A stretch of DNA of 64,000 bases from Halococcus hamelinensis 100A6 (GTDB taxonomy: Archaea > Halobacteriota > Halobacteria > Halobacteriales > Halococcaceae): the NCBI RefSeq assembly GCF_000336675.1, contig NZ_AOMB01000023.1, forward strand, positions 1 through 64,000, written 5' to 3'. This document shows, in pieces, positions 1 to 14,119 of this stretch. The notes beneath the pieces were generated by a model. That model made no database searches. It had not been told where the DNA came from and saw nothing but the letters and a program-made list of their open reading frames with translations. Made by a program: the position numbers and the translations under genes. Numbering within the stretch: position 1 is the stretch's first letter; every line of letters starts with the position of its first letter.

Positions 1-249
1 GGGAGCCGCGACTGGCGGGGCGAGCACGACCGCGACGGTCGCGAGATGGGTGTGACCGTCGAATCCGTCGTCGACGAACTCGCGGCGGCGGCGAACCTCG
101 TCGCGGGCGAGGGCGCGGGCGGGACGCCGGTCGCGGTGGTTCGCGACCTCTCGCTCGACGAGGTCGGCACGAGCGACAACCTCTTTCGCGACGTCGAGGG
201 CGACTTCATCAGGCAGTCCCTCCGGGAGTGGTCGTATGCGGGGGATTGA
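1..249 (+). CDS. cofE: Coenzyme F420-0:L-glutamate ligase, C-terminal part (partial)
   Basis: The frame is open from base 1, so the gene starts upstream of the window. CofE adds glutamate residues to F420-0 using GTP, the last steps of coenzyme F420 synthesis in the cytoplasm. The visible 82 residues include DWRGEHDRDGREM near the edge, then VDELAAAANLVAGEGAGG and a tail ending LREWSYAGD. This matches the C-terminal half of the CofE fold as I remember haloarchaeal members. The stop codon overlaps the start of the next gene by 14 bp, and that gene encodes an F420-dependent enzyme, which supports the call. Only the C-terminus is visible, so the catalytic N-terminal region cannot be checked. Confidence 0.85.
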   Translation, partial: GSRDWRGEHDRDGREMGVTVESVVDELAAAANLVAGEGAGGTPVAVVRDLSLDEVGTSDNLFRDVEGDFIRQSLREWSYAGD

Positions 250-1213
250 ACTCACGCCCGAACACCCCACGGAACGCCTCGTCGACCTCGGCGAACTCGC
301 CGCCGAGGCGGGCTTCGATACGGTCTTCGCGAGCCACCACTACAACAACCGCGACCCGTTCGCCGCCCTCACCCTGCTCGCCGACCGCACGGACGGAATT
401 CGGCTGGGACCGGGCATCACGAACCCCTACGAGACCCACCCCGTGACGCTCGCCTCGCGGGTCGCGACCCTCGACGAACTCGCCGACGGGCGGGGCGTGT
501 TCGGGGTGGGTCCGGGCGACCCCTCGACCCTCAAAAACCTGGGCCTCGGCGAGCAGCGCGGGCTCCGGTCGGTGCTCGAATCCTTCGAAGTCGCCCGCGA
601 ACTCTGGGACGGCGACCGCGTCGACCACGAGGGGTCGTTCACCGCACACGAGGCGGGGCTGAACTACGAGGCGAATCGGATCCCGGTCTACGTCGGGGCC
701 GAAGGGCCGGAGATGTGCCGGATGGCCGCGAAACACGCCGACGGGCTGCTCTTCAACGGATCGCATCCCGACGACCTCGAGTGGGCGCGCGAGCGCGTCG
801 AGGAAGGGTTGGATGAGCGCGTCGTCGGGAGCGAGTTCGACCTCGCGGCCTACGCCAGCGTGAGCATCGCCGAGGACGAGGCGGCAGCGCGCGAGGCCGC
901 CCGCCCGCCGGTGGCGTTCATCGCCGCCGGCGCACCGGAACCGGTCCTCGACCGCCACGGGATCGACGCCGACCGCGCCGCCGCTATCGGGGAGTCGATC
1001 TCGGCAGGGGACTTCTCGGCCGCGTTCGACCGGGTGAGCGAGGCGATGGTCGAGGCGTTCTGTATCGCCGGGGAGCCGGCGACGGTCGAGTCACGAGTTC
1101 GAGAGGTGATGGACCACGCCGACAGCCTCGTCGTGAGTTCGCCGCTGGGTCCCGACCTCGACGCGGCGGTCCGGCTTACCGGCGCTGTGTGTGATCGGTG
1201 TTCGGTGACGTGA
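236..1213 (+). CDS. mer: F420-dependent luciferase-like reductase (Mer-type methylenetetrahydromethanopterin reductase)
   Basis: A 325-residue protein of the bacterial luciferase-like (TIM-barrel) superfamily. Mer-type enzymes use reduced F420 to reduce 5,10-methylene-tetrahydropterin; haloarchaeal homologues probably act in folate-type C1 metabolism. Supporting features are the N-terminal strand GIELTPEH, ASHHYNNRDP around residue 35, LGPGITNPYETHPV around residue 58, the LDELADGRGVFGVGPGD motif and IPVYVGAEGPEM. The length fits Mer (about 320-330 aa). The ATG overlaps the cofE stop by 14 bp, so the two genes are translationally coupled and are probably made together. Substrate specificity is inferred; other F420-dependent luciferase-family reductases share the fold. 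Confidence 0.8.
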   Translation: MRGIELTPEHPTERLVDLGELAAEAGFDTVFASHHYNNRDPFAALTLLADRTDGIRLGPGITNPYETHPVTLASRVATLDELADGRGVFGVGPGDPSTLKNLGLGEQRGLRSVLESFEVARELWDGDRVDHEGSFTAHEAGLNYEANRIPVYVGAEGPEMCRMAAKHADGLLFNGSHPDDLEWARERVEEGLDERVVGSEFDLAAYASVSIAEDEAAAREAARPPVAFIAAGAPEPVLDRHGIDADRAAAIGESISAGDFSAAFDRVSEAMVEAFCIAGEPATVESRVREVMDHADSLVVSSPLGPDLDAAVRLTGAVCDRCSVT

Positions 1214-1388
1214 GGCCGGCGGTGAGCCCGCCGATCGTGAGGTAGCCGAACAGCCCGAAGGAGACTGCGAACAGCACGACCCCGGTGAGGATCGGGATGA
1301 TCGAGAGCGGGCTGGCGAGCGCGGCCTCGACCATGAGCTGGACGAGGTCGACGACGTTGCCGAGGAGGACGACGACGATGTTTGCCAT
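1176..1388 (-). CDS. Small two-helix membrane protein, unknown function
   Basis: A 70-residue protein starting MANIVVVLLGNVVDLVQ. It has one hydrophobic helix at about residues 3-20 and a second, longer one at about 26-55 (PLSIIPILTGVVLFAVSFGLF), with a short polar tail. I chose the internal ATG at 1388 because the upstream extension is Arg/Gly-rich and reads as noise. The last 38 bp overlap the 3' end of the mer-like gene on the opposite strand. Small two-span proteins of this kind are common in haloarchaea and have no assigned role; I do not recognise a function. Confidence 0.65.
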   Translation of the reverse strand: MANIVVVLLGNVVDLVQLMVEAALASPLSIIPILTGVVLFAVSFGLFGYLTIGGLTAGLTSPNTDHTQRR

Positions 1389-1432
1389 ACCTCGGGTAGG
1401 CAAGCGGGCTACTTGTGTTTGTTCGTCCGGGA

Positions 1433-1822
1433 TCACTCCTTCCAGATCAGGCCCTCGAACGCCGCCCGCATCACGACCTCGCGTCCCCGATGACAGACCA
1501 CCGAACACGCGACGTCGTGGCGGTCGTCGCGCCCCTCCACGGCGTCGACGGTGACCTCGCAGGTGATCGACTCGCCGGTGCGAACGGGTGCGAGGAACTC
1601 GAACTCCATCGACCGCGCGAGCACGCCGAGGTCGCCGCCGATCTTGGTGGGAAGCGTCGCGGTGAGGAGCCCCTGCACCACGAGCCGACCCTCCTCGTCG
1701 GGTTCGGTGTGGATCGTCTGCTGGTCGCCCGAGACCTCGCCGAAGCGCTCGACGTCCTCACGGGTGAAGGTACGCTCGAAGGTGTGGACGTCGCCCACCT
1801 CGGGGTTCGGTGTGCTCGGCAT
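1433..1822 (-). CDS. MaoC-like hot-dog dehydratase / (R)-enoyl-CoA hydratase
   Basis: A 129-residue single hot-dog domain protein. The family hydrates trans-2-enoyl-CoA to (R)-3-hydroxyacyl-CoA, as PhaJ and MaoC do, in fatty-acid or polyhydroxyalkanoate metabolism. The hydratase motif reads FGEVSGDQQTIHTEPDEEGR, where the Asp and His are the usual catalytic pair, followed by VVQGLLTATLPTKIGGDLG in place of the usual GMLTAS...... segment. The length fits one domain. It lies upstream of, and on the same strand as, the 70-aa membrane protein gene and downstream of the ABC exporter pair. A PHA link is possible because carboxylase genes for propionyl-CoA lie 30 kb away, but nothing here proves it. 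Confidence 0.85.
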   Translation of the reverse strand: MPSTPNPEVGDVHTFERTFTREDVERFGEVSGDQQTIHTEPDEEGRLVVQGLLTATLPTKIGGDLGVLARSMEFEFLAPVRTGESITCEVTVDAVEGRDDRHDVACSVVCHRGREVVMRAAFEGLIWKE

Positions 1823-1861
1823 GGGGCTTCTATACGGACGGTCCGGAATATACTGTCGGCG

Positions 1862-2638
1862 CTACTCCCATCGGAAGAGCCGCGCCGACAGCCCGCCGCC
1901 GACGACCAGCACGCCGAGGAGCACCGCCACCGACTCCACCGGCCAGCCCCGACCGAACCAGAGCGCCTGCATCACCCGCACGACGTGGGTCATCGGGAAC
2001 ACCTCGGCGACGGCGTGGAGCCAGTCGGGGAGCGCCGAGAGCGGCATCACCGCACCCGAGAGGAACAGCATCGGCATGTAGAGTACCTGTCCGACCACGC
2101 TGGCGACCCGTGGGGTGGGCGAGAGGCTGGCGACCAGATAGCCGAAGGCGATGAACGAGAGCGCGCTCAAGGAGAAGCCCGCGAACACGGCCACCCAGCT
2201 GCCCGAAAACCGGACGTCGTAGACCACCAGCCCGCCGACCACCAACAGGAGCACCCCGAGCAGCGCGACCACGAAGTAGGTCGTGACCTCGGTGGCGACC
2301 CACCGCCACGCGGGCATCGGACTGGCCTTGAACCGCCGCAGTACGCCCTGTTCTCGGTCGCTGGCGGTCGAGACGGGGATCGTGGTGAGCGCGATCGAGC
2401 CGAGCACGAGTCCCACGAGCGCGGGCACGAGTTGGTCGATCCCGTAAGCGTAAGCGTCGGCTGCACCTCGACCGCCCCCCGCCCCACCTGCCGCACCGCC
2501 CGCTCCGGCGTCGAAGACGGTTCCGATGAGCAGGAGGAACAACAGGGGGAAGGCGAGCGTGAAGAACAACGTCATCGGTTCGCGCGCGAGGCGTTTGGCG
2601 TGGGCCTCGACGAGCTTTCGATAGCTCCGAGCGTTCAT
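1862..2638 (-). CDS. ABC-2 type transporter permease
   Basis: A 258-residue multispanning protein with about six hydrophobic segments. It starts with a cytoplasmic helix (MNARSYRKLVEAHAKRLARE) and a first span LFFTLAFPLLFLLLIG, then a Gly/Ala-rich extracellular loop (GAGGAAGGAGGGRGAA). The ABC-2 signature region is visible as ERRFKAS-like text (REQGVLRRFKASPMPAW). It ends LSARLFRWE. ABC-2 permeases work as homodimers exporting drugs, lipids or polysaccharides. The ATG overlaps the stop of the upstream ATPase gene by 4 bp, so the pair forms one transporter. The substrate is unknown. Confidence 0.9.
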   Translation of the reverse strand: MNARSYRKLVEAHAKRLAREPMTLFFTLAFPLLFLLLIGTVFDAGAGGAAGGAGGGRGAADAYAYGIDQLVPALVGLVLGSIALTTIPVSTASDREQGVLRRFKASPMPAWRWVATEVTTYFVVALLGVLLLVVGGLVVYDVRFSGSWVAVFAGFSLSALSFIAFGYLVASLSPTPRVASVVGQVLYMPMLFLSGAVMPLSALPDWLHAVAEVFPMTHVVRVMQALWFGRGWPVESVAVLLGVLVVGGGLSARLFRWE

Positions 2639-3582
2639 CTCCCGTGCGCCTCCTCCGTCCGGCCCGTGCGCTCCATGAACACGTCGGCGAGGTCCGGTTG
2701 GAGCGTCCGGAGGTTTCGTAACGGTGTCGCCTGCCCTTCGAGTTCGAGCACCACCGACGAGACGAGGTCGTCGGCGGCCCCGAACGCCCGGACCACGCCA
2801 TCGGCGCGCTCGACCCGTTCGACCGCTTCGAGGCCACGAACCCCGTCGAGGTCGAGGTCGGGATGGTCGTCGAACACCACGCCACGACCCGCATCGAGGT
2901 CCGCGAGCAGGTCTCGCGGGGTGTCGAGCGCGACGAGGTCGCCGTCGTCGAGGATCGCCACCCGGTCACAGAGGGTTTCGGCTTCGGCCATGTAGTGGGT
3001 GACCAGTACGACGGTCGTCCCCTCCTCACGGATGCGCTCGACAAGCCTCCACGCCGCCTCGCGGGCTTCGGGGTCGAGTCCGGTGGTGAGTTCGTCGACG
3101 AAGACCACCTCGGGGTCGTTGAGGAGCGCGAGCGCGATGAACAGCCGCTGTTGCTGCCCGCCCGAGAGCGCCTCGAATCGGCTGTGGCGTTCGTCGTCGA
3201 TCCCCCACATTTCGAGCAGCGGTTCGTAGGCCACCGTCTCGTCGTAGAACGTCGAAAACAGGTCGAGGAGTTCGAGCACCGTGAGCCGGGCGGGGAGTTC
3301 GGCGGCCTGAAGCTGCATGCCGATCCGCTGGGCGAGCGCGGTGCGCTCCCGACGGGGGTCGAGTCCCAGCACGCGTACCTCGCCCTCGAACGGACCGAGC
3401 CCCATCACCGATTCGACGGTCGTGGTCTTGCCCGACCCGTTCGGCCCGACGACGCCGAAGATCTCGCCCTCCCGGACCGCGAAGCTCACGTCGTCGACCG
3501 CGAGCACATCGCCGTAGTGCTTGGTGAGGCCCTCGACGGTGATCACCGGGTTCGATTCGTCTTGGGTCGAGGGTTCCGACAT
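2635..3582 (-). CDS. ABC transporter ATP-binding protein (ABC-2 exporter partner)
   Basis: A 315-residue nucleotide-binding subunit of the DrrA/CcmA type. It has the Walker A GPNGSGKTTT (about residue 49), Q-loop MQLQAAEL, signature LSGGQQQRL (about residue 140), Walker B VVFVDELTTGLDPEA and the switch His in VLVTHYMAEAE. The Walker B Asp is followed by Glu, so the ATPase should be active. The roughly 90-residue C-terminal extension after the ATPase core is normal for this group. It is the first gene of a two-gene operon with the permease (4-bp overlap). The divergent region to the enoyl-CoA hydratase (3583-3796) probably holds both promoters. Confidence 0.93.
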   Translation of the reverse strand: MSEPSTQDESNPVITVEGLTKHYGDVLAVDDVSFAVREGEIFGVVGPNGSGKTTTVESVMGLGPFEGEVRVLGLDPRRERTALAQRIGMQLQAAELPARLTVLELLDLFSTFYDETVAYEPLLEMWGIDDERHSRFEALSGGQQQRLFIALALLNDPEVVFVDELTTGLDPEAREAAWRLVERIREEGTTVVLVTHYMAEAETLCDRVAILDDGDLVALDTPRDLLADLDAGRGVVFDDHPDLDLDGVRGLEAVERVERADGVVRAFGAADDLVSSVVLELEGQATPLRNLRTLQPDLADVFMERTGRTEEAHGR

Positions 3583-3796
3583 CGAGCCTTCTGTGCGGCT
3601 CGTCGCAGCCGGCTCACTTCAAAGGTCGACATCCATCGATATCGCCGGGTGCCTCCGCACTGATTTCCGTCCGATAGTACCCCTTCCGTTCGTTTGCCGC
3701 TGGATGGTGTCCCTCTCCTGTTGGGGCGATGACCGGAGATTCGCGCGGGCCGGGTTGGACCGAGCCGTTATGCCGCCGCCCACCGTTTCCGGGGAT

Positions 3797-4564
3797 ATGT
3801 CCTGGGAGACCATCGGCCTCGAATGGGACGGCGACGTGGCGACCATCACCGTCGACCGACCGGACCGGCTGAACGCGATGAACGTCGAGACCCTCGAAGC
3901 CCTGGAGGAAGCGCTCTCGGAGGCCCGCGACGCCCGCGCGCTGGTGCTCACCGGCGCTGGTGAGAAGGCGTTCGTCGCTGGTGCGGACATCGGCTACATG
4001 GCGGACCTCTCGGTGCCAGAAGCCCAAGCCTACGCGGAGCTCGGCCATCGGGTCACCGACGCCATCGAGACGTTCCCCGCACCCGTGATCGCCGCCATCA
4101 ACGGTTACGCCTTCGGCGGGGGTTGCGAACTCGCGCTCGCCGCCGACCTCCGGGTGGCGAGCGAGCGCGCGATGCTCGGCCAGACCGAGATCGATCTCGG
4201 GATCGTCCCTGGATGGGGCGGCACACAACGCCTCTCGCGGCTCGTGGGCGACGAACTCGCCCGTCGGCTGGTCTTCTTCGGCGAGCGCCTCGACGCTCAG
4301 GACGCCCACCGGTTCGGCCTCGTCGGCGAGCTCGTCGCCCACGACGAACTCGATTCTCACGTCGCCGAGATGGCCGCGGAGCTCGCCGCCAAACCCAAGT
4401 ACGCCCTCCAGGCCGCGAAGGAGTCGCTGAACCAGGTCCACGAATCCGACCAGTCGGACGGCCTGACCTACGAGCGCCGCCTCTGGAGCGGCCTCTTCGG
4501 GACCGCCGACCAGCACGAAGGGATGACGGCCTTTGTGGAAGACCGCGAACCCGACTTCGAGTGA
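3797..4564 (+). CDS. Enoyl-CoA hydratase (crotonase)
   Basis: A 255-residue crotonase-fold enzyme that hydrates 2-enoyl-CoA to 3-hydroxyacyl-CoA in beta-oxidation. The oxyanion-hole region reads VAGADIGYM. Both catalytic glutamates are present: one in FGGGCELALAADLR, the other in GQTEIDLGIVPGWGGTQRL. The length is normal for the family. I took the ATG at 3797 because MSWETIGLEWDGDVATITVDR is the usual N-terminus and the longer frame upstream is arginine-rich noise; a TATA-like ccgttatgcc lies about 30 nt upstream. The last 42 bp of the gene are repeated 214 bp downstream (see the repeat entry). Confidence 0.93.
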   Translation: MSWETIGLEWDGDVATITVDRPDRLNAMNVETLEALEEALSEARDARALVLTGAGEKAFVAGADIGYMADLSVPEAQAYAELGHRVTDAIETFPAPVIAAINGYAFGGGCELALAADLRVASERAMLGQTEIDLGIVPGWGGTQRLSRLVGDELARRLVFFGERLDAQDAHRFGLVGELVAHDELDSHVAEMAAELAAKPKYALQAAKESLNQVHESDQSDGLTYERRLWSGLFGTADQHEGMTAFVEDREPDFE

Positions 4565-4778
4565 GTGCTCACAAAGCGCTCCCCCTCACAGTCGGCGGGC
4601 CACGGTTGCGGTCGAGCCACGTACCCACCGCGAACGACTGGAGGGAGTGAGCGGCAGTTTTTAGCGTAGATTTTTGCGAGGCGAGGTGCGCGAGCGAAGC
4701 GAGCGCATCCCGCCGAAGTAAAAAGGTACGAGCGGCATGACGGCCTTTGTGGAAGACCGCGAGCCCGACTTCGAGTGA
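4523..4778 (+). repeat. 42-bp direct repeat of the enoyl-CoA hydratase 3' end flanking a 172-bp insert
   Basis: Bases 4523-4564, the final 14 codons including the TGA, recur at 4737-4778 with one synonymous difference (gaa/gag). Between them, 4565-4736 carries an intergenic insert. It holds a GGTTGCGGTCG motif, a T-rich tract (agtttttagcg, gatttttgcg) and the inverted repeat gcgagcgaagcgagcgc. The second copy is out of any gene context: it begins with ATG and could encode only 13 residues. The arrangement looks like an insertion that reconstituted or duplicated the gene end, or a tandem duplication later invaded by a repeat. Confidence 0.9.
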
Positions 4779-4840
4779 CTAGCGATACTCGCCCATACGG
4801 CTCGGGCAGCGGCGTCGAGTGGTTGATACGGACCGCAGCA

Positions 4841-5263
4841 CTACTCGGGGAGGTCCGCCACTGAAAGGGACTCGACGTCCTCGCCCGCCGCCGCTTCGCG
4901 TACGGCGGTATCCTCCGTCACGAGCGTCAGGTCGTGGAGAGAAGCGACGGCGATGTAACTCGCGTCGTAGAACGTGCAACCTGTTTGCCGAGCGGTTTGT
5001 ATCACCGAGAGCAGCGTCGCCCCGGTTGCCTTCTCGACCGATACGTCGCGCTCGATCCGTCCGAGAATGCTGATAGCGTTTTCGAGTTCGGTCGCCGTCA
5101 GTTCATCCCTGGCGAACGCGATCTTCCAGAGCGCGTTCGAGGATTCGTAGATCGTCAGATCCAGGATGTGCTGGTCGAACACGGCCTCGACACCGACAGT
5201 CACGCCACCAGCCCCGATGAGAATATCCACTAGCGAGCTCGCATCGAAGAGCTTCCTCGCCAC
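4841..5263 (-). CDS. vapC: PIN-domain ribonuclease toxin (VapC family)
   Basis: A 140-residue PIN-domain protein, the RNase toxin of a type II toxin-antitoxin pair. The acidic active-site residues are visible: Asp7 in KLFDASSLVD, Glu40 in TIYESSNALWK, Asp in CTFYDASYIAVA and Asp in LVTEDTAVREA. I chose the GTG at 5263, which lies one base after the antitoxin stop and gives the usual short N-terminus (MARKLFD); an ATG at 5287 would add eight residues overlapping the antitoxin. The order antitoxin-toxin and the near-zero spacing are typical of vapBC. The RNA target cannot be predicted. Confidence 0.88.
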   Translation of the reverse strand: MARKLFDASSLVDILIGAGGVTVGVEAVFDQHILDLTIYESSNALWKIAFARDELTATELENAISILGRIERDVSVEKATGATLLSVIQTARQTGCTFYDASYIAVASLHDLTLVTEDTAVREAAAGEDVESLSVADLPE

Positions 5264-5264
5264 G

Positions 5265-5492
5265 TCAGTTGTCCCGCCGCGTCTCACGGACCGCCTCGGT
5301 CACCGTCTCGGAATCGACCTGCCCGCCGACGCTCTCGCGGAGCGTCGCGGCGTCGCGCTGGAGGGCTTCGCGCCGCTGCTCGGTGAGCGCGTCCTCGATC
5401 GCCTCACGGATCACCTCGCTCACGTTGATGTCCTCACGGTCGATCGCGGCTTTCATCTCGTCCGGGATCTTCGCCGAAACGGTCTTCGTCAT
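5265..5492 (-). CDS. vapB: Ribbon-helix-helix type antitoxin (VapB family)
   Basis: A 75-residue protein starting MTKTVSAKIPDEMKAAI. This is a short beta strand followed by helices, the standard ribbon-helix-helix DNA-binding fold, with INVSEVIREAIEDAL as the second helix. The charged C-terminal half (QRREALQRDAATLRESVGG) should wrap the toxin. It lies directly upstream of the PIN toxin gene with one base between stop and start. A perfect inverted repeat overlaps its own start codon, and an AT-rich TATA candidate (ttacttaac on the + strand, 5517-5525) lies about 25-33 nt upstream. This supports a leaderless, self-repressed operon. Confidence 0.88.
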   Translation of the reverse strand: MTKTVSAKIPDEMKAAIDREDINVSEVIREAIEDALTEQRREALQRDAATLRESVGGQVDSETVTEAVRETRRDN

Positions 5493-5507
5493 ACTACAAA
5501 GTAGTAC
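5491..5507 (-). promoter_or_regulatory. Candidate vapBC operator (perfect 6-3-6 inverted repeat over the start codon)
   Basis: TACTACAAAGTAGTA at 5492-5506 is a perfect inverted repeat with a 3-nt centre. It overlaps the first base of the vapB start codon and the expected transcription start of a leaderless mRNA. Ribbon-helix-helix antitoxins bind such palindromes with their cognate toxins, so it is a strong autoregulatory operator candidate. This is inference from position and symmetry. Confidence 0.6.
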
Positions 5508-5598
5508 GATAGCGTCTTACTTAACTGTTGTATCCTCTAAGGTTCGTTCCCTCTTTCGTGGCCTTCGGGACGCGGCGGCTCGCTACGGAGGGCCATCC

Positions 5599-5650
5599 GC
5601 GAGCACCGGGCGGTTGCGGTCGGGCCGCACGACCCACTGTGAACGACCGA
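5599..5650 (+). repeat. Short GC-rich intergenic repeat related to the insert at 4.6 kb
   Basis: GCGGTTGCGGTCGGGCC, then an ACCCACTGTGAACGAC block, lies in the gap between vapB and tfs. It resembles ACGGTTGCGGTCGAGCC followed by ACCCACCGCGAACGAC at 4600-4640. A related cggttgcggtgcggcc is found on the minus strand near 6330-6352. These look like diverged copies of one haloarchaeal intergenic repeat. No reading frame is conserved between copies. Confidence 0.5.
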
Positions 5651-5748
5651 CGAGTGTGAGCACCCTTCGATCGAAGAAACGAGTACGAACAGCTCCCACC
5701 GCGCTCGGGAACCCGGGGCTTAAATCCGGCCAGCTTCATACCGCGGGC

Positions 5749-6069
5749 ATGGAATTCTGCGACGAGTGCGGCTCGATGATGAAGACCGAGGGCGACGAGT
5801 GGGTCTGTGGGAGCTGTGGGTTCGCCAAACCGCGTAACGCCGAAACCGAGGCCGCGATGACGACGACCCAGGGCCAGGAGGAAACCGAGGTCATCGACGT
5901 CAGCGACGTGGACGACCGGGGACTTCCCACCACCGAGGTCCACTGCGATGAGTGTGGCAACGACGAGGCCTACTGGTACATGCAACAGATCCGCTCGGCC
6001 GACGAGTCCGAAACCCGGTTCTTCGTCTGTACCAACTGCGAGCACCGCTGGCGCGAGGACGATCACTAA
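5749..6069 (+). CDS. tfs: Transcription elongation factor TFS (archaeal TFIIS-like)
   Basis: A 106-residue protein with two zinc ribbons. TFS enters the RNA polymerase secondary channel and triggers cleavage of backtracked RNA. The N-terminal ribbon has FCDECG and VCGSCGF. The C-terminal ribbon has VHCDECGNDEAYWYMQQIRS, then ADE, with VCTNCEHRW at the end. The acidic pair in RSADE is the cleavage-stimulating hairpin tip and is intact. The length is the family norm (about 105 aa). The start at 5749 gives the standard MEFCDECG N-terminus; the longer open frame upstream is not coding. The final 14 bp recur 130 bp downstream. Confidence 0.95.
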   Translation: MEFCDECGSMMKTEGDEWVCGSCGFAKPRNAETEAAMTTTQGQEETEVIDVSDVDDRGLPTTEVHCDECGNDEAYWYMQQIRSADESETRFFVCTNCEHRWREDDH

Positions 6070-6355
6070 CAACCACCTTTTGCTGCGGTCGCTCGCGTTG
6101 CTCGCTCCCTGGCAAAATGTGGATCAAAAGCCTCCTCCTTCCCGCTGGTCAGTCGTCGGCCCGCTCGCTCCCGCTGGTCGCTCGCGGGACGATCACTAAC
6201 GGCTCCGCACAGCACCACCACCGCGACCGCACAGCACCGCCGAAGCCCTCGGCGCTCACTTCGTTCGCGCCTCGCCCTTCATCCACCAGGAATCTCCACC
6301 GCAAACCGCACCCGCACGCGGCCGCCGGCCGCACCGCAACCGCCCGCCGGGCGGC
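6057..6355. repeat. Intergenic repeat-rich stretch with a copy of the tfs 3' end
   Basis: No gene is visible in 6070-6355. GGACGATCACTAAC at 6057-6070 (the last codons and stop of tfs) recurs exactly at 6187-6200. Between the copies are ctcgc/gctcgc-rich segments (gcggtcgctcgcgttgctcgctccc, split by aaaatgtggatcaaaag). Beyond the second copy, 6201-6355 carries repeated cagcaccaccaccgcgaccg/cagcaccgccg and, on the minus strand, cggttgcggtgcggcc and gcgcgaacgaagtgagcgcc. These resemble the insert after the enoyl-CoA hydratase at 4.6 kb in the opposite orientation. Confidence 0.6.
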
Positions 6356-8841: not shown

Positions 8842-9615
8842 TCAACCGCCGAGGTAGACCTCGCGGATGTAGTCGTCGTCGCGGAGGTCCTCGGGGCTCC
8901 CAACCCTGACGACCGATCCGTTTTCGAGCAACACGATCCGGTCGGCGTGGTCCATCGCGAACGTCACGTTCTGTTCGCAGAGCAAGAGCGTGACCCCGGC
9001 CTCGCGAATGCGTTCGAGGCCCTCGCTGATGTCCTGGAGGACGACCGGCGCGAGCCCGAGCGTTGGTTCGTCGAGCACGAGGAGGTCGGGCGAGCCCATC
9101 AGCGCGCGACCGATGGCGAGCATCTGCTGTTCGCCCCCGCTCATGGTTCGGGCGTGCTGGCTCGCTCGGTCTTCGAGCGTGGGGAAGAGGTCGTAGACGA
9201 ACGCCCGGCGCTCCTCGGCGTTCCCCCGTCGAAAGGCCCCGAGCGCGAGGTTGTCCGCGACGCTCATGTGTCCGAAGAGGTCGCGGCCCTCGGTACAGTG
9301 GACCAGGCCGTCGCCAACGAGGTCGCTGGTCGAGCGACTACGGACCTCGGTCCCGTCGAACCGGACGCTGCCCTCGTAGTCGTGAAAGCCCGAGACGGTC
9401 TCCGCGAGCGTGGTCTTGCCCGCACCGTTCGGGCCGATCACCGAAACGACCTCGCCGCGGCCGACGTGGAGGTCGATCCCCTGGAGCGCGGCCACCTTGC
9501 CGTAGGAGACGTGGAGCTCCTCGACCGCGAGCATCGCCGTTCCGGTCTCGTCGCCGGCTGCTTCGGCACTCTCGGTGCCGGTTTCGTCGGCACTCCACCC
9601 TGAATCGGTGCTCAC
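8842..9615 (-). CDS. livF: Branched-chain amino acid-type ABC transporter ATPase LivF
   Basis: A 257-residue ATPase of the HAAT (Liv) family. Walker A is [16 protein letters not shown], the signature is MSGGEQQMLAIGRAL, Walker B is LLVLDEPTLGLAP and the switch His is replaced by the usual LLCEQNVTFAMDHADR of LivF. An acidic N-terminal extension of about 25 residues (TDSGWSADETGTESAEAAG) precedes the domain. It overlaps livG by 4 bp. It is the fifth gene of the livJ-H-M-G-F order and acts with LivG at the inner face of the membrane. Confidence 0.93.
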   Translation of the reverse strand: MSTDSGWSADETGTESAEAAGDETGTAMLAVEELHVSYGKVAALQGIDLHVGRGEVVSVIGPNGAGKTTLAETVSGFHDYEGSVRFDGTEVRSRSTSDLVGDGLVHCTEGRDLFGHMSVADNLALGAFRRGNAEERRAFVYDLFPTLEDRASQHARTMSGGEQQMLAIGRALMGSPDLLVLDEPTLGLAPVVLQDISEGLERIREAGVTLLLCEQNVTFAMDHADRIVLLENGSVVRVGSPEDLRDDDYIREVYLGG

Positions 9616-10445
9616 GTGCTCCCCCCGAGGTAGGCCTCTTGAACCTCCTCGTTCGACCGGATCTCGTCGGGCGTGCCCTCGGCGAGCTTCGCGCCGAACC
9701 GGATCACGACCGCGCGGTCGATCAGTGAGAGCAGCCCGCGCATGTTGTGGTCGACCACTACGAGGGTCAGGCCCTCGTCACGGAGGTCCGCGAGGAGGTC
9801 GGAGACGCTCTCGACCTCGCCGGTCGAGAGTCCCGCGAACGGCTCGTCGACCAGTAGGAGGTCGGGGTCGGTGGCGAGCGCCCGCGCGAGTTCGAGCCGG
9901 AGCAAGCCGGCGTGTGGGAGTTCCGACGGGGAGACGTCGAGTCGGTCCCCGAGTCCCACCCGTTCACAGACCGCTCGGGCGCGGTCGTGGGTCCGACCCC
10001 GCAATCCCGAGAGCGTGAACACCTTGTCGGGTGTGAGCGCGAGCGCGACGTTGTCGAGTACCGAGCGATCGGAGAGCGGGCGGAACGACTGGAACGTGCG
10101 CGCGAGTCCCCGTTTGACCATCCGGTGGGTCGCGGTGCCGGTGACGTCCTCGCCGTCGTACCGGACGGTGCCCTCGGTCGGCGGGAACACGCCGGTGACG
10201 CAGTCGAACGTCGTCGACTTCCCCGCGCCGTTCGGGCCGATGAAGCCGAGTATCTCGCCGGACTCGACCGCGAACGAGAGGTCGTCGACCGCCGTCAGCC
10301 CGCCGAACCGTTTCGTGACGCCGTCGAGCACCAGCAACCCGTCGTCGGGTCCGTACGACGCGTCAGCGGCGTTCGCACTCGTCCCGTGCTCGTTCGTCCT
10401 CGACGATTCGTCCGCTGTGTCGTGGGTTCGTGAATCCGTGCTCAT
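9612..10445 (-). CDS. livG: Branched-chain amino acid-type ABC transporter ATPase LivG
   Basis: A 277-residue ATPase. Walker A GPNGAGKSTTFDCVTG, signature SELPHAGLLRLELARAL (a LivG-type variant lacking the strict LSGGQ), Walker B LLLVDEPFAGLS and the conserved LVVVDHNMRGL switch. It carries a polar N-terminal extension of about 28 residues, rich in Thr, Asp and Ser. It overlaps both livM (4 bp, upstream) and livF (4 bp, downstream). The signature motif differs from consensus at the LSGGQ position (SELPHAG), so ATPase cooperation with LivF may be asymmetric. Confidence 0.9.
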   Translation of the reverse strand: MSTDSRTHDTADESSRTNEHGTSANAADASYGPDDGLLVLDGVTKRFGGLTAVDDLSFAVESGEILGFIGPNGAGKSTTFDCVTGVFPPTEGTVRYDGEDVTGTATHRMVKRGLARTFQSFRPLSDRSVLDNVALALTPDKVFTLSGLRGRTHDRARAVCERVGLGDRLDVSPSELPHAGLLRLELARALATDPDLLLVDEPFAGLSTGEVESVSDLLADLRDEGLTLVVVDHNMRGLLSLIDRAVVIRFGAKLAEGTPDEIRSNEEVQEAYLGGST

Positions 10446-11635
10446 TCGTCGTCCTCCAGTAGCTCTCGGAATCGGTCGGTCGCACGCTCCAGGGGTGTCG
10501 ATCCATCACCCGACGGCGGATCCCCGTCCACCGTTCCGCCGTCGGTCGCGACCTGCTGCCCGCGAGCGCGGCCAAGCGCCCGCCGACCGGACCGGAGGGC
10601 CCACGGGAACACCCCCTGTGGCAGGGCGTAGACGACGACCATCGTGAGCAGTACGAAGATCAGGAGGCTGGCTTCGTCGACCCCGACCCCGAGGACCGGA
10701 AGGGTCCAACCCTGTTGGTTCAGGACGTCGTTGAAGAAGTAGAAGAACACGCCGCCGAGGCCCGCGCCGACGATGGTCCCCATCCCGCCGAGGATCGCCG
10801 CGATCAGGACCTCGATGCTCACGGTGAGCGCGAGGAGCTGGCTCGGCCGCGGGCTGCCGATCGGCGTGTGGACGAACACCGCGCCCGCGAGGCCGCCGAC
10901 CGCCGCGCTCAGCACGAACGCGAACAGCTTGAACTTCGCCACGTTCAACCCCGCGGCGGCGACCGCGTCCTCGTCCTCACGGACCGCCGTCAGTACCGAC
11001 CCCACGTCAGAGCGGGTGACGACGAACAGGAGTCCCATGATCGCGAGGAAGAGCCCGAAGCCGATGTAGTAGTTCGCGAGCACGACGAGCTCGAAGTCCG
11101 GGGCGGACACCAGTCCTGTCGGCGCGCTCAGACCGAGTTCGCCGCCGAAGATGTCCCCGTAGATCACGAACACCTGGAGGAGTATCAGCGGCGCGACCAG
11201 GGTGATGAGGGAGAGGTACGGTCCCCGAACGCGGAGCGCCGGCACGCCGATCAGGACGCCCGCGACCGCCGCGAGGACGACCCCAGCCGGGATCGAGAGC
11301 CCGGGCGAGACCCCGTACCCCAGGTTGAGGAGCGTCGAGGTGTAGCCGCCGACGGCGAAGAAGAGGGCGTGACCGAAGCTGATCTCGCCGGTGTAGCCCG
11401 AGACCGTATCCCAGCTCATCGCGAACATCCCGAAGTAGAAGGCCCCGATGAGGACGAGGAGCTGTGTGGTCGATATCCCGGCGAACGGGAGGACGGCGAA
11501 CGCCACGACCCCGAGGAACCCGAGCAGGTAACGGGGTTTCAGTATCGACGAGCCGAGCGACGTGTTCCGCCCGTCGGCGGTTTCGGCCGACTCCCTGGAC
11601 CCGTTCGCCTCGCCGGGGAGGGGTTCGTCCGACAC
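10442..11635 (-). CDS. livM: Branched-chain amino acid-type ABC permease LivM
   Basis: A 397-residue multispanning permease. A hydrophilic N-terminus is followed by about nine or ten hydrophobic segments, including WDTVSGYTGEISFGHALFFA, the LivM-typical region near residue 75. The coupling-helix region is AVREDEDAVAAAGLNVAKFK, which contacts the ATPases. A polar C-terminal tail of about 60 residues (from ALGRARGQQ to LLEDDE) extends beyond the last span. It sits between livH and livG, with a 4-bp overlap to livG. Confidence 0.92.
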   Translation of the reverse strand: MSDEPLPGEANGSRESAETADGRNTSLGSSILKPRYLLGFLGVVAFAVLPFAGISTTQLLVLIGAFYFGMFAMSWDTVSGYTGEISFGHALFFAVGGYTSTLLNLGYGVSPGLSIPAGVVLAAVAGVLIGVPALRVRGPYLSLITLVAPLILLQVFVIYGDIFGGELGLSAPTGLVSAPDFELVVLANYYIGFGLFLAIMGLLFVVTRSDVGSVLTAVREDEDAVAAAGLNVAKFKLFAFVLSAAVGGLAGAVFVHTPIGSPRPSQLLALTVSIEVLIAAILGGMGTIVGAGLGGVFFYFFNDVLNQQGWTLPVLGVGVDEASLLIFVLLTMVVVYALPQGVFPWALRSGRRALGRARGQQVATDGGTVDGDPPSGDGSTPLERATDRFRELLEDDE

Positions 11636-11636
11636 G

Positions 11637-12500
11637 CTATGCCTCCGTGAACTCCCGGCCGAAGAGGCCCTCGGGTTTCACGAGCAACACGGCCACGAGC
11701 ACGACGAGCCCCGCGAGACCGCTGAGTCGCGGGTCGACCGCCGAGGTGGTGATGACTTCGAGGAAGCCGATGACGTACGCCGCGACGAGGCTCCCCCGGA
11801 TCGAGCCCAGCCCGCCGAGCACCACGATCGAAAAGGAGAGCACGAGCGGGTCGCGCCCCATCGCCCAGCTCGCGGTCTGATAGGAGCCAAGGAAGAGCCC
11901 CGCGAGCCCGGCGAGCAGCCCCGCGATCGCCCAGGTGTAGAGGTTGACTCGGTCGCTCTCGATCCCGACCAGCGCCGCCCCGCGCGTGCTCATGCTGGTC
12001 GCGAGGATCGCCTTGCCCGTGTTGGTGTAGTTGATGAAGCCGAACAATCCTCCGATGAGCACCCACGACAGCACGAACACGACGACGAGGTTGTTCTGGA
12101 CGGTGGTTCCGAGGAGGTTGGTGGTCCCCGCAACCAGCGGCGGGATCGCGCGCGGCTGGGTGCCCTCGACGATCCGGACGAGTTCCTCGACACCGATTGA
12201 CGCCAGCAGGGTGAGGATCATCACGACCACGACGTTGTCGCGGCGGCGCTCGGCGAACCCCTTGTAGAGCAACACGCTGAACACCGCGGGCACCACCATC
12301 GCGGCGAGCGCACCAGCCCAGACACCGAAGCCCGCCGACGTGATCGAGTAGGCCGCGAACGCGCCCACCGTGATCACCGCGCCGTGGGCGAGGTTTATCG
12401 TGCCGCCGACGCCGAAGATCATCGTGAAACCGACCGCGACCAGCGCGTAGAGCGAACTGATCACCAGGCCGTTGACGAGGATGGGTGCGACGGCGACCAT
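11637..12500 (-). CDS. livH: Branched-chain amino acid-type ABC permease LivH
   Basis: A 287-residue permease with about eight hydrophobic segments. The LivH hallmark GVGGTINLAHGAVITVGAFA is near residue 30, and the coupling-helix region is TNTGKAILATSMSTRGAALV. It ends LLVKPEGLFGREFTEA, the usual LivH C-terminus. Its ATG follows the stop of the binding-protein gene without a gap (TGA directly followed by ATG). It pairs with LivM to form the channel. Confidence 0.93.
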   Translation of the reverse strand: MVAVAPILVNGLVISSLYALVAVGFTMIFGVGGTINLAHGAVITVGAFAAYSITSAGFGVWAGALAAMVVPAVFSVLLYKGFAERRRDNVVVVMILTLLASIGVEELVRIVEGTQPRAIPPLVAGTTNLLGTTVQNNLVVVFVLSWVLIGGLFGFINYTNTGKAILATSMSTRGAALVGIESDRVNLYTWAIAGLLAGLAGLFLGSYQTASWAMGRDPLVLSFSIVVLGGLGSIRGSLVAAYVIGFLEVITTSAVDPRLSGLAGLVVLVAVLLVKPEGLFGREFTEA

Positions 12501-13985
12501 TCAGATCCACGCGGGCTGCTGGTAGTCGGCGGTCTTGTACTGTTCGGGCCAGACGACCTCCTGTACCCCGCTCCCATCGCCCTCCTGCCACTGGAGGAAG
12601 ACGGGATAGATCGCGTCCTCGCTGTAGACCGGGTCGTGGGGGAACTCCTGGTCCCGACCGTAGAACTCGAGGGTGCCGGTGGTCGCGGTGAACGACGCGT
12701 CCTCCATCGCCGAGACGAGTTGGTCCGCGTTCTTGGTGCCGGTCTGCTCGACCATCGCGGCGTAGAGCTTGATCGCGTCGTAGGTGATGTAGCCGGTGTA
12801 CACCGGGTAGCTATCGAACTGCTGGTTGTAGGCCTCGACGAACGGCTGGGTCTTCTTCGTGATCTCGCTCTGGGGCGTCGCGGAGGTCTGGGTCACGCCG
12901 TAGAGACACGCGCCGTTGACGGATTCGTAGTAGGAGGGGAGCTGCATCGGGACGTGGATCCCAGCGAAGCCGAACGGCCGTTGCTGTTTGGCCCACTGGA
13001 CGACGGCCTCCGTACCCGTATGGGCCATCGCTGTGAACATCCCGCTCGCGCCCGAACTCTCGACGTCGTCGAACAGGGGCCCGAAGTTCGAGGTGCCGCT
13101 GGCGTAGCGCTGGTTGCCCGCGACCTCCGCACCCGTACTCCCGAGCTTCCGGTCGAAGAGCTCGGAGATCGGCTCGGTCCACGAGTAATCCTCGACCATC
13201 GCGTAGGTCGAATCCCAGCCCATGTTCTCGAAGTTGGCCTTCCCGAAGTCGACGAGGTTCTGCCCGAGGTCGCGGTCGTTGATCGGTCCCGCCCGGAAGT
13301 GGTACTTATACTGGTCGTAGTTCTCGGCCACCATCCGCGAAGCTTCCGTGCTCGCCGCGCCGGCCGTGATGTGGACGACCTGCTGCTGGGCGATGTCGTC
13401 CATGATCTCGAGCAACACCTCGCTCGTGAACACCCCGGTCGTGACGTCGGCGTTCTGGTTCAACACGAGTTCGCGATACCGTTGTTGACCCGTCGAGGGG
13501 TCGGATTCGGTGTTGCCGGTGGCGAGTTCGACCTGTGCGCCGCCGATCCCGCCGTTATTGTTGAGCTCCTCGACGGCGAGTTCGGCGGCGTTGACTATCG
13601 AGCCACCGATGGGGTCGTTCTCGGGGTCGGGTGCGAGCACCCCGATCGTGACCGGGCCCTCGATGGCGTTTCCGCCGCCGGAGTTTCCCTGGGTGCTGGA
13701 ACCGTTCCCGCCACCCCCACCGCTTCCACCGCCACCACCGCTCCCGCCGCCACCCTCACTACCGTTTCCGCCCTCGCCACCGCCCGCCCCGCCCGATCCG
13801 TTCGACCCACCGGAGCCACCGCCGAGACTCAGACAGCCGGTCACCGTGGTCGCGAGCGCCGCACCGCCGGTGACCCGAAGGAACCGCCGTCGCGCAGTGT
13901 CACGTTTATTTCCATTGTTCGGTCTATCCTCGACATCGCTTCCATCGGTCCGTTTGTCGGGATCCTCGTTATCATCGGTAGCCAT
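12501..13985 (-). CDS. Liv-type substrate-binding lipoprotein (Tat-exported)
   Basis: A 494-residue extracellular binding protein of the ABC HAAT family (Peripla_BP_6 fold), the first gene of the operon. The N-terminus has a twin-arginine signal (TARRRFLRVTGGAA) and a lipobox, TVTGC, so it should be lipid-anchored. A Gly/Ser/Asn-rich linker of about 65 residues (around residues 60-120) separates the anchor from the ligand domain, which begins GPVTIGVLAPDPENDPIGGS. I used the ATG at 13985, which gives a normal Tat signal, rather than the ATG 45 nt upstream. Neighbouring acyl-CoA ligase and crotonase genes suggest an acid ligand rather than an amino acid; this is inference. Confidence 0.9.
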   Translation of the reverse strand: MATDDNEDPDKRTDGSDVEDRPNNGNKRDTARRRFLRVTGGAALATTVTGCLSLGGGSGGSNGSGGAGGGEGGNGSEGGGGSGGGGGSGGGGGNGSSTQGNSGGGNAIEGPVTIGVLAPDPENDPIGGSIVNAAELAVEELNNNGGIGGAQVELATGNTESDPSTGQQRYRELVLNQNADVTTGVFTSEVLLEIMDDIAQQQVVHITAGAASTEASRMVAENYDQYKYHFRAGPINDRDLGQNLVDFGKANFENMGWDSTYAMVEDYSWTEPISELFDRKLGSTGAEVAGNQRYASGTSNFGPLFDDVESSGASGMFTAMAHTGTEAVVQWAKQQRPFGFAGIHVPMQLPSYYESVNGACLYGVTQTSATPQSEITKKTQPFVEAYNQQFDSYPVYTGYITYDAIKLYAAMVEQTGTKNADQLVSAMEDASFTATTGTLEFYGRDQEFPHDPVYSEDAIYPVFLQWQEGDGSGVQEVVWPEQYKTADYQQPAWI

Positions 13986-14009
13986 CGGTCTGTACGATAG
14001 TAGCATACA

Positions 14010-14024
14010 TACTATATAAATATG
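14010..14024 (-). promoter_or_regulatory. TATA box for the liv-CoA ligase operon
   Basis: On the minus strand the sequence reads atatttatatagta, ending about 27 nt before the ATG at 13985. It is the only strongly AT-rich run in this gap. Its spacing fits a haloarchaeal TATA box with a leaderless or very short-leader transcript. The divergent photolyase gene has its own weaker TATA candidate (gacttagga, about 28 nt before 14120). Confidence 0.6.
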
Positions 14025-14119
14025 ATGCACGAACGTGATGGTTGTCGGTAGAGCGGTTCGGTCGAGGCCGGGGGTGCCACGACCCGATGACTTAGGAAAC
14101 CCGACTCCGTAGCCCGTTC

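Follow-up and report, generated by a model that had tools for sequence, protein, structure and literature searches.

The window (the whole stretch of 64,000 nucleotides that was analysed) contains an echA-like gene whose 3′ end is present twice, on either side of a short insert. All positions without a genome label are those of the window; G000 denotes its own genome and G006 the sister species, which is the closest species compared. The features of the locus are the following.

3797–4564, + strand: echA-like enoyl-CoA hydratase/isomerase gene (open reading frame list; Pfam ECH_1, E=3.7e-65), with its stop at 4564
4520–4564, + strand: copy 1, the in-frame 3′ end of echA, 45 bp with TGA
4565–4733, + strand: insert between the copies, 169 bp, missing in G006 (alignment of the window to G006)
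4627–4727, + strand: part of the insert recognisable as a dispersed haloarchaeal hairpin repeat (HMM match, E=3.8e-19)
4658–4676, + strand: repeat core TTTTT-AGCGTAGA-TTTTTG, in which GTA at 4666–4668 pairs with TAC at 4727–4729
4690–4706, no strand: GCGAGCGAAGCGAGCGC, inverted motif in the inner hairpin (RNA fold z = -3.9)
4720–4733, + strand: right end of the repeat, AAAAAGGTACGAGC, which abuts copy 2; the AAAAAGGTAC end recurs in other copies of the subfamily
4734–4778, + strand: copy 2, a non-coding duplicate of the echA 3′ end, 45 bp with TGA
4841–5287, − strand: PIN-domain gene (VapC-like), convergent to echA, present in G006 too
5265–5492, − strand: RHH/CopG gene (VapB-like), present in G006 too

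The direct repeat 4520–4564/4734–4778 is identical at 43 of 45 positions, with a start-to-start distance of 214 bp, and its two differences (GAA/GAG and GGG/GGC) are both synonymous. A preliminary description of this DNA had reported that the last 42 bp of the gene, including the stop, recur 214 bp downstream with one synonymous change. This is confirmed: GAA/GAG is the sole difference within 4523–4564, and extension by three bases gives the full 45-bp block and adds GGG/GGC. A 19-mer taken from the repeat finds two matches in the window at up to three mismatches, where 0.04 are expected. The repeat-like insert with an inverted motif, placed between the copies by the same description, was recovered as GCGAGCGAAGCGAGCGC in the hairpin, and its view that the gene stays intact since the insert brings a copy of the gene's end is supported. 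The echA product has 99% amino-acid identity to its counterpart in G006.

Both 3–4564 and 4734–5532 align to G006, where they overlap on one 45-bp stretch; an empty echA allele therefore exists. G006 carries a single echA end and no insert, and the flank directly 3′ of its stop is the one that follows copy 2 in the window. The comparison of related genomes proposed earlier has thus yielded its empty site. Considered alone, the window is explained equally well by a single recent insertion. Elsewhere in the window, 5.2 kb with ABC-transporter-like genes (about 8869–14052) are not found at the corresponding place in G006.

The window's copy of the repeat is a degenerate member of the AGCGTAGA/AAAAAGGTAC subfamily. 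No recent donor of the insert was found in its own genome (best match, 82% over 98 bp). Its 5′ 60 bp have no other good match except a 51-bp stretch at 5611–5661 (76%), which lies in the same orientation within the intergenic segment 5533–5702; 49 unrelated bases occupy this place in G006. The idea that segment 5533–5702 marks the other end of a single event was rejected, there being no duplication at that stretch, and an Rfam match to the insert was sub-threshold and put down to chance.

The repeat belongs to a dispersed family of the form T5-N8-T5-G, variable hairpin, A5, so that the expectation of a sequence common to other loci holds. The family has 22 other matches in G000, and across the haloarchaeal order it is found in 60 of 79 genomes and 27 of 35 genera. 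Its members are about 100 bp long and contain no genes; their outer arms are complementary and enclose an inner hairpin. In 82 of 85 elements, the triplet before the second T-tract pairs with the triplet after the A-tract, and five different triplet pairs are used for this, so that covariation keeps the outer stem conserved. The T-tract lies close after stop codons, as in terminators, and in six of eight convergent cases a distance of 7 nt separates the right end from the convergent gene's stop. On the strength of the covarying outer stem and of this spacing, the repeat has the look of a terminator that acts in both directions. In archaeal U-tract terminators (aCPSF1-assisted; PMC8716108), a T-tract likewise lies close behind the stop codon, whereas here we are dealing with a dispersed, covarying hairpin family and not a plain T-tract. 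Nearly all other mappable elements occupy the same place in G000 and G006 (365 kb aligned), indicating that the family, taken overall, stays in place. Another family copy lies at 6068–6292 behind a TFS-like gene, and is also in G006.

Further 3′-end duplications beside the same repeat family, for which the preliminary description had recommended a search, were found at other genes. A scan of 2.43 Mb gave three duplications bounded exactly at the stop, namely echA in the window, a nuoI-like gene for a ferredoxin and a gene for an Lhr-type helicase in G006, and no analogous duplication of a gene start. Two of the three lie beside a core element: the duplication is seen at 2 of 25 elements, versus 1 of some 2,220 gene ends elsewhere (p=4e-4). 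The scan was extended to 92 distinct elements from many genomes and to 26 more records, three of which repeat the earlier set; it added an MBL-fold gene (G074), gatB (G071, G315) and, in the genus to which G071 belongs, four more loci. The layout of gene end with stop, repeat, and gene end with stop thus occurs at eight independent loci with a T5/A5 repeat (echA, nuoI, the MBL-fold gene, gatB and the four loci in G071's genus) and at a ninth, Lhr, where the hairpin insert is different and has no T5/A5 core, the junction being present in G006 and G001. Including Lhr, it covers 11 species in three families; except for echA, nuoI-like and Lhr, the genes were named by reading their translations. 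The repeat has the same orientation at nuoI, the MBL-fold gene, gatB and four further genes. The best flanking direct-repeat scores are 17–80 for duplicated elements versus about 7–11 for non-duplicated ones; one non-duplicated orthologous pair reaches 16, owing to repeats that belong to the family. When the pattern for the CCACG subfamily was tightened, three additional elements came up, none with a gene-end duplication. Two records had matches at three plasmid places, and the best-matching place in either record was without such a duplication.

The geometry of these loci is constrained on the right. Copy 2 usually starts 0–9 nt past the outer stem of the repeat, and all duplicated inserts are gene-free and measure 61 to about 290 bp. 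Further empty alleles matching the copy-2 flank were seen for nuoI (G008 versus G002) and for gatB (G109 and G171 versus G071). The homology often ends at the stop codon; in the most recent-looking case, a thiolase-like gene of G171, the copies are identical at 51 of 51 positions and the homology extends 19 bp beyond the stop. In G190, the 3′ end and its hairpin form a tandem array, the last element of which is degenerate. This array, together with the overrun at the thiolase-like gene, fits recombination between alleles that differ downstream and does not fit a mechanism that reads the stop codon. Repeat matches at a regular spacing of 105–219 bp occur in several genomes. Matches about 151–154 bp apart at G109:C2:819106-819960 and G071:C1:919893-920286 are likely to be longer arrays of gene end and hairpin.

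The divergence between copies was then compared within and between genomes, with one genome per species. Junctions are shared at nuoI (G006, G002, G000), Lhr (G006, G001) and gatB (G071, G315). For nuoI, the distance between copies is 0.012 within G002 and 0.025 within G006, versus 0.185 between G006 and G002; G000 is a less clear case (0.111 within, versus 0.099–0.136 to G006). The Lhr copies differ by 0.072 within G006 and 0.174 within G001, versus 0.188–0.217 between the two, and the gatB copies by 0.111 within G315 and 0.250 within G071, versus 0.19–0.25 between them. In most of these cases, not in all, the similarity of copies within a genome appears to match what gene conversion would produce, a process that, unselected, is very efficient in Haloferax volcanii (PMC8223754). 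In the gatB locus of G071, comparison with the sister species singles out copy 1 as the odd one; this suggests that foreign DNA, and not reshuffling within the lineage, is involved.

Codon differences between copies, stops left out, comprise 25 synonymous and 8 non-synonymous changes. This excess is significant against an expectation of 25% synonymous (p=1.4e-9) and against 40% (p=3e-5), the latter being a figure that we estimated for a pair in which one copy is constrained and the other free. As the differences are more synonymous than under free drift, copy 2 behaves as if it were sometimes the coding end.

The fixed right junction, the shared junctions with homogenised copies and the synonymous differences argue against simple one-off insertions, and tandem multiplication together with homogenisation of the copies speaks for homologous recombination and not for site-specific integration. 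We propose that a unit made of the gene 3′ end and the hairpin may be gained, multiplied, converted and lost through homologous recombination between gene-end copies, and we put the chances of this proposal being right level with those of its being wrong. Its basis is the recurrence of the layout, the empty alleles, the shared junctions, the homogenised copies in most of the shared cases and one tandem array. A terminator-like hairpin repeat and a copied 3′ end of the preceding gene would travel and multiply as one. Homologous recombination within the gene end would bring the unit into an allele that lacks the hairpin, either from an excised circle by a single crossover or by transfer from an occupied allele, and recombination between the two gene-end copies would remove the unit again. 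The gene would never be broken, and both copies would take turns as its coding end. How the first junction arises at each gene is the least certain step: the polymerase or a nuclease might act where the hairpin has its right foot, the end then being joined 40–100 bp back inside the gene, but slippage at the hairpin or single-strand transposition with a misplaced left end may have formed it instead. We infer both the direction of change at echA and the terminator function of the hairpin.

A broader formulation, which we advance tentatively and hold to be possible but doubtful, is that of a haloarchaeal exchangeable terminator unit: the hairpin would take up the 3′ end of the gene ahead of it and, through homologous recombination within this end, pass from one allele, strain or species to another, both gene-end copies staying under coding selection. 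The papers retrieved contain no description of a recurring layout combined with a fixed right end and a coding-type constraint on the non-coding copy. If the proposal is true, it would account for the way in which convergent or tightly spaced genes acquire and shed terminators undamaged, and would provide a natural, small-scale test of gene conversion in polyploid archaea; it would also caution that a duplicated gene end is not necessarily the mark of an integrase.

A purely local origin would be given by replication slippage at the hairpin, which doubles the gene end together with the hairpin, the redundant downstream hairpin subsequently decaying or being deleted. Such a tandem duplication agrees with the G190 array and its degenerate last element, with the regular spacing of repeat matches in several genomes and with a right end fixed at the hairpin foot. 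However, straight from the stop onwards the copy-2 flank of the window agrees with the G006 flank, which has no hairpin; there is no trace of a second hairpin, and the same holds for nuoI in G008 versus G002. We regard slippage as unlikely, although it keeps an appreciable share of the probability.

Single-strand transposition, of an IS200/IS605-like, PATE-like or SMR-like type, would account for the gene end differently, a left cleavage inside the gene carrying it along. It agrees with a hairpin that defines the right end and with the covariation between the triplet 5′ of the hairpin and the right-end triplet, reminiscent of guide and cleavage sites. The sections of PMC3119063 drawn on here describe transposase-free palindromic mobile elements in haloarchaea, the small mobile repeats (SMR) and palindrome-associated elements (PATE) of Haloquadratum, which by description resemble the present family in a length of about 100 bp, the absence of genes, palindromic ends and many copies. 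However, these elements are reported there to leave no target duplication, and strain-specific insertions would be expected of them, whereas here the gene end is duplicated, the one specific copy having a 45-bp duplication, and nearly all mappable copies are common to G000 and G006. A single Y1 transposase gene is present in each of these two genomes, but the Y1 search gave no match in the repeat-carrying congeners G003, G007 and G008. The probability of such a transposition seems to us low.

Duplicated gene ends are, to our knowledge, not a known feature of REP/BIME sequences either. As far as the portions of PMC3733652 considered here describe them, bacterial REP/BIME with RAYT transposases share with our family short extragenic hairpins, a high copy number, a position near stop codons and a proposed terminator role, whereas no dedicated transposase seems to be linked to the family here. 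The SMR/PATE and REP traits described in these parts of the literature (PMC3119063, PMC3733652) do not include a duplicated gene end.

The preliminary description likened the locus to site-specific elements that integrate at gene ends, and suggested that the insert may be a non-autonomous element or the scar of a larger one. The idea of an insertion was right; an integrase-type element or a larger precursor found no support. Integrative elements do lie in gene 3′ ends, for instance e14 in E. coli icd. The echA locus is like them in that the end of the element supplies a synonymous copy in place of the gene 3′ end: a 45-bp identity block over the gene end lies at both ends of the insert, the gene is intact and an empty allele exists. 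In contrast to e14, there is here no integrase, no cargo and a different gene end at each locus. The 169-bp insert is too small for an integrase gene and no larger form was seen, the inserts at all loci being small and gene-free. Moreover, the same repeat flanks the ends of unrelated genes, so that no fixed attachment core is common to the loci, and an apparently conventional tRNA-end island in the same contig looks different. An integrase element is, in our estimate, very improbable. The island is an 8.9-kb insertion relative to G006, from 58067 of the window to C23:66963, beyond the window end; it is bounded by a direct repeat of 14–18 bp, the right-hand copy of which lies at the 3′ end of a tRNA-like sequence, and its genes have a glycan-related look as judged by sequence.

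An assembly artefact is conceivable in a draft with several exact tandem duplications of about 75–93 bp that resemble unmerged joins, but its probability is negligible, given that the two echA copies differ, that the insert carries a recognisable repeat subfamily and that some ten other assemblies show the same layout. Contigs C5, C20, C33 and C43 of G000 contain numerous exact tandem duplications of about 63–93 bp (e.g. C33:51099-51187), which are probably unmerged assembly joins.
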